Shown here piece after piece: positions 16,342-58,058 of a DNA stretch of 64,000 nucleotides; the first letter of the stretch is position 1; every line of letters begins with the position of its first letter. Both the position numbers and the translations under genes were made by a program. The notes beneath the pieces were generated by a model. The model did no database searches, was not told the DNA's origin, and saw only the letters and a program-made list of their open reading frames with translations. Source of the stretch: Affinundibacterium nitidum (lineage in GTDB: Bacteria; Pseudomonadota; Gammaproteobacteria; Burkholderiales; Burkholderiaceae_D); contig NZ_JACOFZ010000001.1 of NCBI RefSeq assembly GCF_014284155.1, positions 1,072,545 to 1,136,544 on the forward strand. Direction: 5' to 3'.

Positions 16342-16406
16342 AGGGCGGGTGAAACCCGCGCCGCCAGCAAGTAATGCACATGAGCAGCGCGGGTTTCACC
16401 CGCCCT
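16342..16406. repeat. Perfect 20-bp inverted repeat element
   Basis: AGGGCGGGTGAAACCCGCGC (16342-16361) is exactly reverse-complementary to 16387-16406, separated by 25 bases. Each arm itself contains a short GGGTGAAACCC dyad. The arms match a motif type (GGGCGGGTTTCACCCGCCC) found scattered between genes in many proteobacteria, so this is probably a dispersed non-coding element. It has no T-tract, so it is not a classical terminator. Confidence 0.85.
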
Positions 16407-16625: not shown

Positions 16626-17009
16626 TAGGAAGTTTTTGTCGGGCGTGGAAGCCGTCGAGAGAGCGCGATTTTTCCGCTTCTAAATCGCCAATGATGCTCA
16701 ACAGAAAATGGAAAAAGAAAGTGTTGTTGTCTGAGCGCAGCGAGTTTCAACACTTTCCCATTTTTTGTTGTGCGGCATTGGGGACCCGAAGGGCGATTTA
16801 GTGCGGTCGCCTTTTTTGGGTTACCTTTTTTGGCGAGACAAAAAAGGTAACTAGCTGTCGGGCTACCCCCGACCTGCAAACGTCGAGAAACAGAAAGAGT
16901 AATTCTGAGATAAGCTTTATCGCTGACTCAGCAAAATGAAGATTAAGAAAAAAAGCAACACCCAAGCCCAACTCAATAAGAGCGACGGCAATTCAGTAAC
17001 CAACACAAA
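16626..17009. repeat. Dispersed palindromic repeat block
   Basis: No credible gene is present. A 13-bp perfect inverted repeat GTTACCTTTTTTG (16820-16832) / CAAAAAAGGTAAC (16839-16851) has a six-base loop. A second hairpin GTCGGG/CCCGAC lies at 16857-16873. The surrounding bases (16640-16880) read on the minus strand like the 'hypothetical' repeats scattered in Burkholderiales and Xanthomonadales genomes (…LFCLAKKGNPKK…). The simplest reading is a non-coding repeat family copy with chance open frames. Confidence 0.5.
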
Positions 17010-17120: not shown

Positions 17121-18521
17121 ATGGCAACTTTCAGCGTTAAAGACGTCCTCAACGGCAAAGCCCCGAGTGACACTACCGTCACCGTGCAAGGTTGGGTGCG
17201 TACCCGCCGCGATTCCAAAGCAGGCGTATCCTTTTTGGCCTTAACCGATGGCTCTTGCTTCGGTACTTTGCAAATCGTCGTGCCAAACACTTTGGGCAAT
17301 TACGACAGCGAAGTCTTGCATTTGACAGCCGGTGCTTCTTTTGCTGCGACTGGCAACATCGTGCCATCACAAGGCGGCGGTCAAAGTTTCGAAATGCAGG
17401 CTGAAAGCGTGCAAGTATTTGGCTTGGTCGAAGACCCAGACACCTACCCTATTCAACCAAAACCACACAGCATGGAATTCTTGCGTGAGAACGCACACTT
17501 GCGCGCACGCACCAACATCATGGGTGCAGTAGCACGTGTACGCCACTCCATCGCACAAGCCATTCACCGCTTCTTCCATGAACAAGATTTTTACTGGGTT
17601 AACACCCCAATCCTGACTGCATCTGATTGCGAAGGCGCAGGCGAAATGTTCCGCGTATCCACCTTGGATATGATGAACTTCCCAAAAACACCAGAAGGCA
17701 AGCCAGACTTCTCTAAAGACTTCTTCGGCAAAGAAACCTTCCTCACGGTGTCTGGTCAGTTGAACGTAGAAACCTATTGCATGGCCTTGTCCAAAGTTTA
17801 TACTTTCGGCCCAACCTTCCGCGCAGAAAATTCCAACACCAGCCGCCACTTGGCTGAGTTCTGGATGATCGAACCTGAAGTCGCTTTTGCTGACCTCAAA
17901 CAAAATGCTGACCTCGCTGAAGCCATGTTGAAATATGTGTTCACTGCAGTGTTGAATGAACGTGCAGACGACATGGCCTTTTTCGAAGAGCGTGTAGAGA
18001 AAGGTGTGATCGCTAAGTTGCAAAACATGATCGCCAAACCATTCGTACGTATGGACTACACCGAAGCGGTCAACATCTTGCAAAACTGCGGTCAAAAATT
18101 CGAATACCCAGTGTCATGGGGCACCGATCTGCAATCTGAACACGAGCGCTATCTCGCTGAGAAACACGTCAATGGCCCAGTGGTTCTGCAAAACTATCCG
18201 AAGGACATCAAATCTTTCTACATGCGCATGAACGACGACGGCAAAACCGTAGCAGCGATGGACATCTTGGCCCCAGGCATCGGCGAAATCATCGGCGGCT
18301 CACAACGCGAAGAACGTTTAGACGTATTAGACGCACGTATGGAAGAAGTCGGCTTGGCGAAAGAACCGTACTACTGGTACCGCGACCTACGCCGCTACGG
18401 CACAGTACCACACGCTGGTTTCGGCTTAGGCTTCGAACGCGCGGTGTCTTACATCACTGGCGTGGGCAATGTGCGTGACGTAATTCCGTTCCCACGTACA
18501 CCAGGGAATGTGCGTTTCTAA
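17121..18521 (+). CDS. asnS: Asparaginyl-tRNA synthetase
   Basis: A 466-residue class IIb synthetase. An OB-fold anticodon-binding domain comes first ([14 protein letters not shown]), then the catalytic core with [16 protein letters not shown] (motif 1 and asparagine-specific region), [21 protein letters not shown] (motif 2) and the terminal [15 protein letters not shown] (motif 3 with its arginine). AENSNTSRH rather than an AspRS-type sequence supports asparagine specificity. The gene is monocistronic, with its own promoter upstream and a strong terminator. Confidence 0.97.
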
Positions 18522-18545
18522 TTTATTGCTTTGAGCTTGAATCAA

Positions 18546-18574
18546 TAAGGGGCGACAAATTGTCGCCCTTTTTT
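18546..18574 (+). terminator. Rho-independent terminator of asnS
   Basis: GGGCGACA (18550-18557), loop AAT, TGTCGCCC (18561-18568), then six Ts. It starts 25 bases after the asnS stop. A textbook structure. Confidence 0.92.
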
Positions 18575-18711
18575 GTTGGTATTTGATGTTCAAATCGTAG
18601 ATTTCCAAATTCTGTGATCTGCACTTTTCTCGATTTCGTTATATCTCAGGTTTGTACAGTGGAACTAATTTAAGCCAAGCAAAATGCGGGTTTCAAGAGA
18701 CTTCACGCAAA

Positions 18712-18740
18712 TTGGTTTTTTTGATAATCCGAGTTAAACT
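18712..18740 (+). promoter_or_regulatory. Promoter in front of the gene cassette (copy A of a three-copy family)
   Basis: TTGGTT, 17-base spacer TTTTTGATAATCCGAGT, TAAACT. The spacer as well as the boxes resembles those at 22468-22496 and 37969-37997. The expected start is about 18747, 29 bases before the cassette ATG. It lies outside the cassette boundary (18765), so it would act like an integron Pc promoter. Confidence 0.55.
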
Positions 18741-18764
18741 TCATTTTTGCAAATTGAATAAGCG

Positions 18765-19268
18765 TTAGGTGAATAATGTCTTCCGTCATAGGAGTTATAC
18801 CAACTTTTCCGTTGAATTGGGAATTGCTTAAGACAAGAGCGAACACCAAAATCGAAGTGAATGAAATTAGTAAAGGTTACTTATATAAAATTGAATTCAG
18901 GGGGAAGCTTTTTAATTTCCGAAATAGTGACTCCCGTAAAGATTTCAAAATTCATCCTCCAATTGAATATTTAGATGAAAAACGATCGAACCTCATAGAC
19001 ATAGAAAGTTTGTCGCGCGGTTGGGAGTCGGTTGGTTGTAGTTATTACATAGCACCAGAAGGGGAGTACGAGGATGCCGACTTTGTAGATTTGGTGGCTA
19101 TAATTGCCGAAACTACTCAAGGAATAATTCTAAATATCAATAGTATATGGTCATGGAGCTTTGGATTATCGACGCCGCAAGAGCTAATTTCTAGGTCTTC
19201 GGCTTTGAGGTAACACCACCTAACAAGGCAATGTTGGCGGACGCATAAATGCGCCGCAAATCTTTACG
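18765..19268 (+). mobile_element. Single integron-type gene cassette
   Basis: A core site GTTAGGT (18764-18770, fits GTTRRRY) stands six bases before the ORF start, and a full attC ending in GTTAGAC (19268-19274) follows the stop codon within five bases. With integrase cutting between G and TT, the mobile unit is 504 bp: almost no leader, one low-GC ORF, one attC. No integrase gene or further attC is visible in the window, so this is either an orphan attC (CALIN-like) or a cassette inserted at a secondary site. Confidence 0.65.
18776..19213 (+). CDS. Cassette-borne protein of unknown function
   Basis: 145 residues, ATG six bases after a core site. No signal peptide and no transmembrane segment. 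The sequence is soluble and strand-rich (YLYKIEFRGKLFNF), with an acidic middle (PEGEYEDADFVD) and a hydrophobic stretch AIIAETTQGIILNINSIWSW near residues 107-126. I do not recognise a family. It is visibly richer in A+T than the housekeeping neighbours, with AAA/ATT/TTT codons, which fits horizontal arrival. A possible immunity or stress role, common among cassette genes, would be guesswork. Confidence 0.7.
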   Translation: MSSVIGVIPTFPLNWELLKTRANTKIEVNEISKGYLYKIEFRGKLFNFRNSDSRKDFKIHPPIEYLDEKRSNLIDIESLSRGWESVGCSYYIAPEGEYEDADFVDLVAIIAETTQGIILNINSIWSWSFGLSTPQELISRSSALR

Positions 19269-19274
19269 TTAGAC
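19218..19274 (+). other. attC recombination site (57 bp)
   Basis: R'' ACCTAAC (19218-19224, fits RYYYAAC) and R' GTTAGAC (19268-19274, fits GTTRRRY) share a pairing CTAAC/GTTAG. Inside, TTGGCGG pairs with CCGCAA leaving one unpaired G (the extrahelical base expected in attC), and CGCAT/ATGCG form the terminal hairpin around AA. The length and order match minimal integron attC sites. Confidence 0.72.
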
Positions 19275-19329
19275 TTTACTGGATACTTCATGCTACTTCT
19301 TATGACCATTGCAGCGGCATCGTAGCTTG

Positions 19330-20910
19330 ATGTCTACGACAAATTTATCAAAACAGCTTTATCTAAGATTAGCGAAATTTTTGGATCATATCCTAAATAA
19401 ATTGGTTACTATCAGAATGCAAAATGACGAATCAAAAACAAAGGCAAGCTCAAGTGAGCTGAGTTGGACTTGCCAAATCTCATTTGACGAAAATGCAGAG
19501 AAAAAGCGCGAGCAATTTCGAGCCAGTCTGGTGTCGTTGACGCCGTTGTTTGATTTTGCGCCTTTTGCTCGGAAGATGTGTGAGCTACCCGAGAGCGAGT
19601 TATATGGCAAACCAGATTGGTGTAAAGCAATCAGTGTTGCAGCTACGACTTACCTAGAAGAACTCGATGCTCTGCACACGAAAAATCCATTGATTGCAAT
19701 CAAGCTCGCTGCGATTGGGGCAGCAACGGTATCTCGTCAATATCGCCTAGGTCAAGACATGATGCAACGGGTCTCCAAATGGTTAAGCGACGATCAAGTG
19801 CCAATACGCGACCGAATCGAACTCGGACTCCTCATTCAAGCCAATTGGCCCGATCGGTACAACAAGCTGGACGGTCTTGAGGAACAATTGCTCGATATCT
19901 TGGTCATCGAATCGTCAGCTCATCCAAAATACGTACATGAGATTATCGAAAAACATCATGAGGGTACCCGAGCTTTTTCGGGGGATATCTTTTCTTCATC
20001 TGATGATCCGAACAAGATTCTATTGATTGCTCAAAATCTCAAGGCATTCGAGCCGCAATTCTACATCCATGCGTTGCGAAATTACCTTGAACACGGGAGA
20101 TCGCGGTACGGCTTGTTCGAGGCAGCAGAACCCCAACTGCGGTCCATAGCTGATAAATATTTTCTAGCCGTCCAATCCGAGCCAGGTCTAAAAGAGACTG
20201 AGAAGGGCTTACATTATTTTTGGTTGAACGCGTTAACTTATCCTGATGCTAAATGGTATCCAATAGTGTTGAGGCGTTTACTCGATGCTGCCGATGAGTG
20301 TAACAACCCTTACTATGCAGCAGAGTGGAACCGTTCAGTAGCACTCAACGCCAATCCACAGTCAGAGATATTTTCCGTCGCAATTCAATCTTACACTAGG
20401 TATTTACAAAGTTTTCTAACTCCAAACATTACCGATCAAAACATACTTCGCAATTTCTCACGATTCTTGAATGAAAGCCTAGATTGCGCACTCGAAGATG
20501 GCGCATCACGAGGTCGAAACTACTCAGTACCATCAAGTCCAAAACACCCTATTGTCGAACTAACTCGACAAGCTTATTGGGATTTGGTTGCGTTGGCGAC
20601 GACGCTACCCACAGGTATCGTACTGCACATTCTTTCGAGAGGTGTTGCAAATGACGATACGATTCTAGCCACAACCGCTGCTACCAAAATTGTCGAAGTT
20701 TTTGAGTCTAAAGCTAAGCAGAATCTAAACGAAGCGGCTGAGGTTGTTGGTTTCTTCGATTGTTATCACTGGTCTTCGGGAGTGAACGATGTCAAAAGAG
20801 CGCGCTGTCTCGACGTATGGCGTCAGCTGTCAACCATATTGACAGAAGTTTCCCCAGAAGCGGCGAAAAAGGCTGAAACCTTCGGTCGAAATCCAATGTG
20901 GGATCGATAA
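19330..20910 (+). CDS. Large alpha-helical protein of unknown function
   Basis: About 526 residues from ATG 19330. In-frame alternatives are TTG 19309 and ATG 19417 (MQNDESK), and no good Shine-Dalgarno sequence decides between them. There is no signal peptide, membrane segment or motif I recognise. The protein is helical throughout with many Leu/Ala/Tyr pairs (LAATTYLEELDALH, LRNYLEHGRSRYG, LDAADECNNPYYAAEWN), suggesting an alpha-solenoid or a domain from defence or toxin-like loci. It lies 56 bases after attC, so it was probably the original neighbour of the insertion point. No partner gene is apparent. Confidence 0.7.
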   Translation: MSTTNLSKQLYLRLAKFLDHILNKLVTIRMQNDESKTKASSSELSWTCQISFDENAEKKREQFRASLVSLTPLFDFAPFARKMCELPESELYGKPDWCKAISVAATTYLEELDALHTKNPLIAIKLAAIGAATVSRQYRLGQDMMQRVSKWLSDDQVPIRDRIELGLLIQANWPDRYNKLDGLEEQLLDILVIESSAHPKYVHEIIEKHHEGTRAFSGDIFSSSDDPNKILLIAQNLKAFEPQFYIHALRNYLEHGRSRYGLFEAAEPQLRSIADKYFLAVQSEPGLKETEKGLHYFWLNALTYPDAKWYPIVLRRLLDAADECNNPYYAAEWNRSVALNANPQSEIFSVAIQSYTRYLQSFLTPNITDQNILRNFSRFLNESLDCALEDGASRGRNYSVPSSPKHPIVELTRQAYWDLVALATTLPTGIVLHILSRGVANDDTILATTAATKIVEVFESKAKQNLNEAAEVVGFFDCYHWSSGVNDVKRARCLDVWRQLSTILTEVSPEAAKKAETFGRNPMWDR

Positions 20911-22286: not shown

Positions 22287-22467
22287 GCCCATATTCCTCC
22301 GACTAGCTCCAGCCCAATAGGAGTGAGATCATGAACGGGCTTGTGTCGTTCTCGAATGTGGAAATTATTCCAACGATCAAGTATTCGAGCGGAATAGCTC
22401 TGTCAAGGTAAACTACTAAAATAGACTTTGCGATGCGTTCGGCCATTTAGAAAAAACGTGATGTGAA

Positions 22468-22496
22468 TTGGCTTTTTTGACATTACGAGATACACT
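22468..22496 (+). promoter_or_regulatory. Promoter of the 22529 gene (copy B of a three-copy family)
   Basis: TTGGCT, 17-base spacer TTTTTGACATTACGAGA, TACACT. The start would be near 22503, which excludes the GTG at 22499 as a start codon and supports ATG 22529. Confidence 0.55.
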
Positions 22497-22528
22497 CGGT
22501 GCTCATCAACCCAAGCCTATCTTGCCCC

Positions 22529-37746: not shown

Positions 37747-38019
37747 AAAGAAAGATCCAATGCCAAGATCGTATTGCGTTCGGTATTTCTCCTAATGGAA
37801 AATATTTGCCGAAATGCATAACAATGAAACACGCGCTTAATTAAATGCGGCTGTCTCGATCCAAATTCCAAATTTCTCGTTGGGATTTTCCTCAACGTTT
37901 AAAACAACTGTTTGAGGAAAATGATGCAAGTGATGCGCTATGCAGACTTCAAGCGTTTTGAAATCGAATTGTCTTTTTGAATATGCCAAGTTAAACTTCA
38001 AACTTAACTATTGAACGCC
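37747..38019. other. Intergenic stretch with promoter
   Basis: No gene. Contains the promoter at 37969-37997. Confidence 0.5.
37969..37997 (+). promoter_or_regulatory. Promoter, copy C of a three-copy family
   Basis: TTGTCT, 17-base spacer TTTTGAATATGCCAAGT, TAAACT, followed by TTCA as in copy A. The expected start is near 38004, about 16 bases before the small ORF at 38020. Confidence 0.5.
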
Positions 38020-56969: not shown

Positions 56970-58058
56970 CTAAGCGACGAGGTCAATTTGCTGCAAGCTA
57001 TGGGCCTGCCCGGCCTCGCTTAACCAAAGTCCACTCGAGCGCAGTTGGGCGAGTGGTTTATTTTGAGTATCATTCATAGAAAAACTGGTATTCACATTAC
57101 CAAGGAAAAGCGCTCCAACATGCGCTTCTTTCAAGCTGGCGAGATGGTCCTTACCTGTCGCATTTTTTGTCCACACTTGCAATTGTTGATACACGGGATC
57201 GTTTTCGTCGATCCAACCGTTATGGTCAATATCGTACTGTTGCAACTCTCCGAAACCATTACCCGACTGTGGCCCGAATAACTCTTTGCCATCATCAATT
57301 TTGCCGTTCTTATTTTTGTCCAACGCTAAAAAACCAGCTCCATTGACGAATGAAATATTCTCTTTCTTTCCATCCGCATCCAGATCGAAAGAAAATTGTT
57401 GATCACTCAACTGCAAGGGCGATGCTGAAAAATTTAACACCAAAGGGTCAACTTTTTTTGCACTACTCGCAACGATGTCCGTGCTCGACACTTGTTGAAA
57501 CTCACGCTGTAGTTCAAAGCTCAAATTGAATTTAATTTCGCGATTATCCGACGTTCGCACTACACCACTCGATTGAAATTGGACTTGCTCACTTTCCTTC
57601 ACTGTCGTGCGCGCGTGATATTCTAATTCCCATGCCTGCGGCGACGGTCTAGATGATCGCACTTGTGGCTTTCTTTCTTCTGCCACATTCGATGCTGATT
57701 CACATTGATTGCATGTCGCTCTTGTACCACCAAACAATTTGATGTTTTGCCCCAACATGTATTCGATCAGCGTTTTAATGAGCTGCACACGAGGATCACT
57801 GCTTTCCTCTTCCGAGAGCTGCTCTACGTTGGTAGTGGGAGGTGGCGCAGTGAGCGATTGCTCATACTGCTGAAAAATTCTAGCAAGCTCTGAAATAGAG
57901 ACATCGAGATCAAGATTTCGATTTTCCGCTAGCGAGTTCGGGTTGATTCTTGATTCGGGATTTTTGGTAACTTCAAGCTTCAGACTTTCCTCCACCGTTT
58001 TCTGGTAGGAATAGGAGGAGCTCGATGCCATCACAACATCGGACGATGCGATTTTCAT
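56970..58058 (-). CDS. Hypothetical protein with EF-hand-like calcium loops
   Basis: 362 residues, GGAGG six bases before the ATG. No signal peptide. N-terminal ~110 residues are low-complexity and charged, then a strand domain (ELEYHARTTVKESEQVQFQS). Two calcium-type loops follow: DLDADGKKE and DKNKNGKIDDGKEL, and a third DIDHNGWIDENDPVY. It resembles non-secreted or flagellum/biofilm-linked 'VCBS-type' accessory proteins, but I cannot name the family. Confidence 0.65.
   Translation of the reverse strand: MKIASSDVVMASSSSYSYQKTVEESLKLEVTKNPESRINPNSLAENRNLDLDVSISELARIFQQYEQSLTAPPPTTNVEQLSEEESSDPRVQLIKTLIEYMLGQNIKLFGGTRATCNQCESASNVAEERKPQVRSSRPSPQAWELEYHARTTVKESEQVQFQSSGVVRTSDNREIKFNLSFELQREFQQVSSTDIVASSAKKVDPLVLNFSASPLQLSDQQFSFDLDADGKKENISFVNGAGFLALDKNKNGKIDDGKELFGPQSGNGFGELQQYDIDHNGWIDENDPVYQQLQVWTKNATGKDHLASLKEAHVGALFLGNVNTSFSMNDTQNKPLAQLRSSGLWLSEAGQAHSLQQIDLVA

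Follow-up and report, generated by a model that had tools for sequence, protein, structure and literature searches.

A lone gene cassette in a decayed attI platform of Affinundibacterium nitidum points to dispersed docking sites probably served in trans

The window analyzed here, a 64,000-nucleotide stretch of the Affinundibacterium nitidum genome, holds downstream of asnS a single gene cassette with a complete attC which, judged from its sequence, sits in an orphan attI platform. In the usual description of an integron, a single integrase and a single attI precede a single array. Here, by comparison with the genomes of the genus Undibacterium, we consider it probable (roughly 70%) that dispersed orphan attI sites, served in trans, hold cassettes and that the window contains one such platform. 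The comparisons suggest that these orphan docking sites still exchange genes, with an integrase that is probably made elsewhere.

The cassette starts at the attI/cassette core G|TTAGGT on the plus strand (positions 18764 to 18770, read directly from the sequence), with the crossover after 18764; this is also the point at which the similarity between species stops. From core to core the cassette spans 504 bp (18765 to 19268, plus strand), precisely the extent given in the original prediction, and it carries a single ORF between the core site and the attC, as gene cassettes do. This ORF (18776 to 19213, plus strand), taken from the ORF list and used for protein searches, has the 145 codons and the preceding GTTAGGT core that had been predicted, but the spacing between the core and the ATG at 18776 is five bases rather than six. 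The GC content of the cassette (39%) lies below that of the window (47%) and of asnS (51%). When the 44 genomes of the genus were searched with positions 18200 to 19700 and up to eight candidates per genome were scored, no match outside the genome of origin reached beyond query position 571 (window position 18770), i.e., into the cassette, which is unmatched in the 43 other genomes. The cassette is thus absent from the same place in relatives, and the objection that ORF and flanks might be fixed chromosomal sequence was not borne out.

The attC of the cassette occupies 57 bp on the plus strand (19218 to 19274), from R'' (ACCTAAC, 19218 to 19224) to R' (GTTAGAC, 19268 to 19274). Its stem pairs TTGGCGG with CCGCAA and leaves an extra G, and an extra A precedes the CGCA/TGCG tip. 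Ranked by a score with hand-set weights, this site was the top place in the window, with 42.1 on the plus and 41.5 on the minus strand and 39.1 for the runner-up; in block-Markov shuffles of the window, 42.1 was attained anywhere on either strand in 2 of 60 cases. An earlier scorer, whose energy term was biased toward long sites and whose list lacked the window attC, was set aside. A covariance model (R1) built from 25 attCs of the genus, excluding the window site, ranked it first of two matches in the window, at 15.6 bits and E = 0.037 (E = 1.2 for the second). This is modest support, and it becomes E = 0.35 when the window is pooled with 40 other sources. The covariance search that had been proposed as a check therefore favored the site within the window but did not place it among the 20 matches at E ≤ 1 in the whole genome, for which 150 of 691 candidates were scored. 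In the computed excised circle, R' becomes GTTAGGT and is complementary to R'' throughout (7 of 7), and the two pair in the predicted folds of either strand. The integrated form pairs at only 5 of 7 positions, as it should if the final six bases are part of the downstream DNA. Together, the core, the ORF, the match to the attC model and the complete circular pairing uphold the prediction of a gene cassette with a complete attC. Two further palindromes lie between dut and asnS (16342 to 16406 and 16696 to 16773), of which the latter has an attC-like outline and a score of 38.7 on our own scale and is not listed by R1.

The 145-amino-acid protein encoded by the cassette gave nothing better than E of about 0.1 in Pfam, PHROGs, NCBIfam and the PDB sequences, no match in PADLOC, and no relative in viral_contigs or genome_contigs. 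Among 399 genomes of the order, three besides its own contained matches. The best of them is distant (E = 9e-11, 32% identity) and lies in another family of the order (L189), while the other two have E values of 0.002 to 0.004 and an internal stop. A single-sequence AlphaFold2 model was poor (pLDDT of 43.7). The match at L189 adjoins a 298-amino-acid ORF with no Pfam match over the cutoff, and it is from this neighbor alone that one might guess at a role as an immunity protein.

Judged by homology, the approximately 140 bp before the cassette are a decayed integron platform in which intI is reduced to a few codons. We refer to the recurring element as the attI unit. Its layout, seen across 45 aligned units, consists of the intI start codons, a LexA-like palindrome, a promoter-like stretch and an attI that closes in the core; it has no constant 5' boundary, the intI remnants varying in length. 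A sequence model of this unit (R2), built from 26 units without the window copy, matched positions 18630 to 18768 on the plus strand with 81 bits (E = 3.6e-24). The decayed 5' end of a divergent intI extends over 18578 to 18634 on the minus strand, as delimited by alignment with the corresponding stretch of the asnS units of relatives and with the intact intI of genome G144 (the low-coordinate boundary is uncertain), and the position of its start codon (18632 to 18634) reads ATC instead of ATG. This remnant is all that lies beside the attI in place of the intI of a complete integron, whereas the attI itself is homologous to the intI-linked attI sites of G144 and G160:C78. The alignments further place a degenerate palindrome, which we take to be a LexA-like box, at 18639 to 18665; it is better preserved in other units, e.g., that of G144. 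The promoter proposed at 18712 (TTGGTT, a 16-nucleotide spacer, and TTAAAC at 18734; 18712 to 18739, plus strand) matches, column by column, better hexamers in other units, but it was not listed by a consensus promoter scan and is best regarded as putative. Thus, while the cassette does lack a neighboring integrase, the notion that it lies at an arbitrary place outside an integron did not survive the comparison: its insertion point is the homologue of a true attI, within the remains of an integron platform.

The window contains a second decayed unit on the plus strand (37923 to 38005; R2, 29.9 bits, E = 3e-8), which covers model positions 38 to 119 and lacks the attI end; R1 found no attC in the 19 kb after it and listed, apart from the cassette's own attC, just a weak match at 57018. 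A short fragment resembling the promoter part of the unit (22466 to 22497, plus strand; blastn, 87.5% identity over 32 nucleotides, E = 2.9e-5) was unreported by R2 and may be a chance match. Between asnS and the platform, a terminator-like hairpin (18547 to 18571) coincides with a subthreshold Rfam match to DapZ (E = 0.0015) that is probably just the terminator.

Similar platforms recur in the genome of origin (G000), a draft of 80 contigs in which the window locus is C11:1091174. A DNA search with positions 18700 to 19300 recovered the stretch before the core on contigs C65 and C22, where each copy heads cassettes with attC matches. The C22 copy adjoins an IntI N-terminal remnant containing a stop codon, and the attI core of the C65 unit is GGTAGGC, not a GTT core. 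R2 returned five unit matches from this genome; four are located at C65, C22, C11:1091174 and C32, and the fifth is, by its score, probably the second unit of the window at 37923. At least 20 attC matches at E ≤ 1 (again with 150 of 691 candidates scored) are distributed over arrays on C22, C65 and C32, with several matches each, and singles. The arrays on C65 and C22 have in common a 1,224-nucleotide stretch with two cassettes that is 98% identical and bounded by GTT cores at both ends, although the units that head these arrays are only 83% identical. In line with the prediction that the window holds no integrase, nothing in the whole draft exceeded the IntI cutoff. A 318-amino-acid tyrosine recombinase (C11:1033086-1033889; L008, L182) shows partial, subcutoff likeness to the integron integrase model; an attC match lies about 2 kb beyond it, and similar recombinase matches occur in G160:C105 and G177:C235.

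Orphan units are also found at the same chromosomal places in different species. A close AsnS was present in 10 of the 44 genomes. A unit follows asnS in G000, G177, G160:C83 and G132, a partial one in G146, and one of another kind in G154; in G151 the unit stands after a second copy of the asnS 3' end, and none was seen after asnS in G150, G149 and G166 (the last judged from 1.5 kb of sequence). Between the asnS stop codon and the attI core, intI remnant included, the sequences of G000, G177, G160:C83 and G132 can be aligned; from the core onward they diverge. Indeed, the kilobase past the core showed no mutual blastn or tblastx match at 1e-8 among G000, G177 and G132, a comparison from which G160:C83 was left out since its contig ends 120 bp past the core. 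The asnS units of G146 and G154 have no attC match behind them. The same pattern holds between plsY and ybaK, where the alignment of G000 and G177 is close, with one 38-column gap and including the lost intI start codon, as far as the attI core; beyond it the two differ, while the ybaK product on the far side is 97% identical; in G149, too, a unit lies between these genes. At both loci, the alignments place the loss of intI before the split of the species, and the sequence after the core has changed since.

A tree of 45 units (156 columns, two incomplete units included) brings together six units located behind all or part of asnS, from G000, G177, G146, G132 and, twice, G160, with an ultrafast bootstrap of 100, while several deep nodes are poorly supported. 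This group also includes two units that do not follow asnS (G151:C29 and the G154:C5 unit at 96.9 kb), and the units behind asnS in G154 and G151 lie in other parts of the tree, so position and kinship of the units disagree in places. In G151:C36 (L105) and G160:C105 (L103), part of the asnS 3' end recurs as an additional copy ahead of an attI unit. This looks like the outcome of an element's insertion at the asnS terminus with duplication of that end.

Across the genus, 30 of the 44 genomes contain R2 unit matches at E ≤ 1e-3, 200 in all, and the other 14 contain none; strict filters may have lost further units, and individual matches were listed down to E = 4.9e-7, the weaker ones possibly being partial or second matches to one unit. 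G063 and G160 have the most (18 each), followed by G104 (15), G151 (14), and G132 and G154 (11 each); all 18 matches of G063 are distinct places. Full-length, stop-free IntI-like frames, 51 to 100% identical to the IntI of G144, amount to at least 15 copies in at least 11 of the 44 genomes, and many other genomes keep, among the matches listed, only N-terminal pieces of intI. We also observed that the listed remnants in the genus are mostly N-terminal, with no clear piece of the IntI C terminus alone among them, whereas some such pieces occur in other genera. In G144, a unit stands directly ahead of an intact 329-amino-acid intI on the opposite strand, and in G160:C78 a unit likewise immediately precedes an intact intI. 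Besides this complete integron, G144 contains three units that are 83 to 92% identical to the intI-linked one, each with an attC within 1 kb, i.e., the same anatomy as the window locus, and R2 located two further units at C1:3222023 and 3222767. G156 has five units, all on one 4.9-Mb contig, and its listed IntI-like matches are Xer-like only. In G177, two unit matches lie on other contigs than its two full-length integrases, and R2 reported no unit on the integrase contigs.

To relate units and attCs, we started from 56 R2 matches and removed eight short opposite-strand matches to the palindrome and two that end short of model position 130 (L109 and window 37923). For the remaining 46 units, which reach the attI end, attC matches within 1.5 kb lay on the same strand downstream of 22 and upstream of 3, with none on the opposite strand; 6 of the 56 attC matches were left out here (L185, which overlaps L006). 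The strand agreement (46/46) is partly built in, since the training attCs of R1 were oriented by their attI. The other 24 units have no attC within 1.5 kb, some of them being near contig ends, and many units may no longer be active. In both G063:C1 (67 to 77 kb; L117) and G104:C5 (69 to 75 kb; L121), four attI units succeed one another on a single strand, in the latter with attC matches between them.

Outside the genus, a 201-bp unit query was run against the remaining 138 genomes of a family sample of 146 (up to five candidates scored each) and gave a single match, of 26 bp. A degenerate pattern of the attI end retrieved 18 stretches from genome_contigs: 9 from Undibacterium, 1 from an Oxalobacteraceae metagenome-assembled genome, and 8 from unrelated bacteria. 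The latter had no R1 attC and only three weak, partial R2 matches (at best 18.9 bits), and were taken as chance.

How would cassettes come and go at a site without an integrase? We favor an integrase acting in trans because intI-less units are common to several species and yet the DNA beyond their cores differs, and because the stretch shared by C65 and C22 is far more alike than the units ahead of it. By the alignments, the window's unit had lost its intI already in a common ancestor of several species; on our account, an IntI from another locus, or one whose gene has since been lost, would move cassettes into and out of the orphan attI by recombination between attC and attI. One integrase would thereby serve several docking sites, although that of the present genome now seems gone, and the first gene at a site would be transcribed from the unit's own putative promoter, which looks weak in the window copy. 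Several points weigh on the other side. The genome is a draft, in which intI could be missing from the assembly. The two full-length integrases of G177 are of other types, being 63% and 51% identical to that of G144, and its two unit matches lie on other contigs. The 24 units that lack a nearby attC, the GGTAGGC core of the C65 unit, the disagreement between position and kinship of the units and the modest score of the window attC count here as well.

Alternatively, the locus could be an ordinary relic, in which a complete integron after asnS took up the cassette with its own integrase and then lost intI, with no action in trans. The intI remnants of many lengths, which indicate that integrases decay often in the genus, and the missing IntI match in G000 are in its favor; however, it accounts poorly for an intI-less state that is common, at asnS and between plsY and ybaK, to species that differ from the core onward, and for a 98% identical stretch at two orphan platforms of one genome, and we regard it as unlikely. 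It is less plausible still that the differences beyond the core arose from homologous replacement or random deletion of flanks. Flanks are indeed rearranged in places, the asnS 3' end being present a second time in G151 and G160, but the breaks at asnS, at plsY-ybaK and at either end of the 1,224-nucleotide stretch coincide with the core or miss it by only a few bases.

Two further explanations seem hardly credible. A lone cassette without an integrase is just what insertion at a nonclassical attG site would leave, and the likeness of the upstream DNA to attI would then be incidental; yet the insertion point, instead of being neither attI nor attC, belongs to a 140-bp homologue of a real intI-attI region, which goes far beyond a match to the core. 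Equally, although the attC score by itself would leave room for a chance hairpin next to an ordinary gene, such a hairpin would have to coincide with an attI unit, with full pairing of R'' and R' in the circle, and with the absence of the ORF at the same place in relatives.

These loci resemble several known systems. With sedentary chromosomal integrons (intI-Pc-attI plus cassettes, e.g., the ilvD locus of Xanthomonas) they have attI, attC and cassettes in common, and the unit retains, as in the intact G144 integron, the first codons of intI and a LexA-like box; in contrast to such integrons, most platforms here have no intI, and there are several per genome. CALINs, defined in the available text of PMC12444791 by at least two attC sites without an integrase, are likewise cassettes with no integrase nearby, and the same text states that they can be mobilized in trans and that Xanthomonas has several conserved CALIN loci. 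The window locus, with its one attC match, falls below that threshold, and the loci described here are headed by a recognizable attI unit. Insertion of lone cassettes at attG, mentioned in the accessible parts of PMC12901181 and PMC12444791, also yields cassettes outside complete integrons, but the site here is an attI homologue. Finally, the Delta-attI-type cassettes of mobile integrons, in which a truncated attI takes the place of the cassette attC, resemble our units in being copies of attI away from intI, and they still recombine (both points from the portion of PMC12901181 available); in our case, cassettes at numerous points of the chromosome are preceded by a 140-bp unit. Integrase-less cassettes, mobilization in trans, attG insertion and recombining attI fragments have thus already been published, as far as the available parts of these two papers extend (PMC12444791, PMC12901181). 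A literature search that covered few subscription papers found no description of many dispersed attI units per genome.

It is tempting to speculate further that the many orphan attI-promoter units of Undibacterium form one distributed integron, a network of docking sites on which one integrase, or a small number of them, acts in trans. The unit itself would have multiplied, perhaps by means of the integrase, as a promoter-plus-docking element that occurs in cassette arrays too. We put this forward tentatively, as a possibility with the odds somewhat against it.

If orphan attI sites are indeed served in trans, docking sites can multiply and work at a distance from the integrase, in a genus whose genomes have up to 18 unit matches and in which integrase genes are much scarcer. 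A large number of cassettes could then adjoin promoters simultaneously in different parts of the chromosome, and random insertion sites would not be needed to account for some of the cassettes that lack an integrase. Loci at which the same orphan attI is followed by a different cassette in each species would, in addition, provide natural experiments for cassette turnover.
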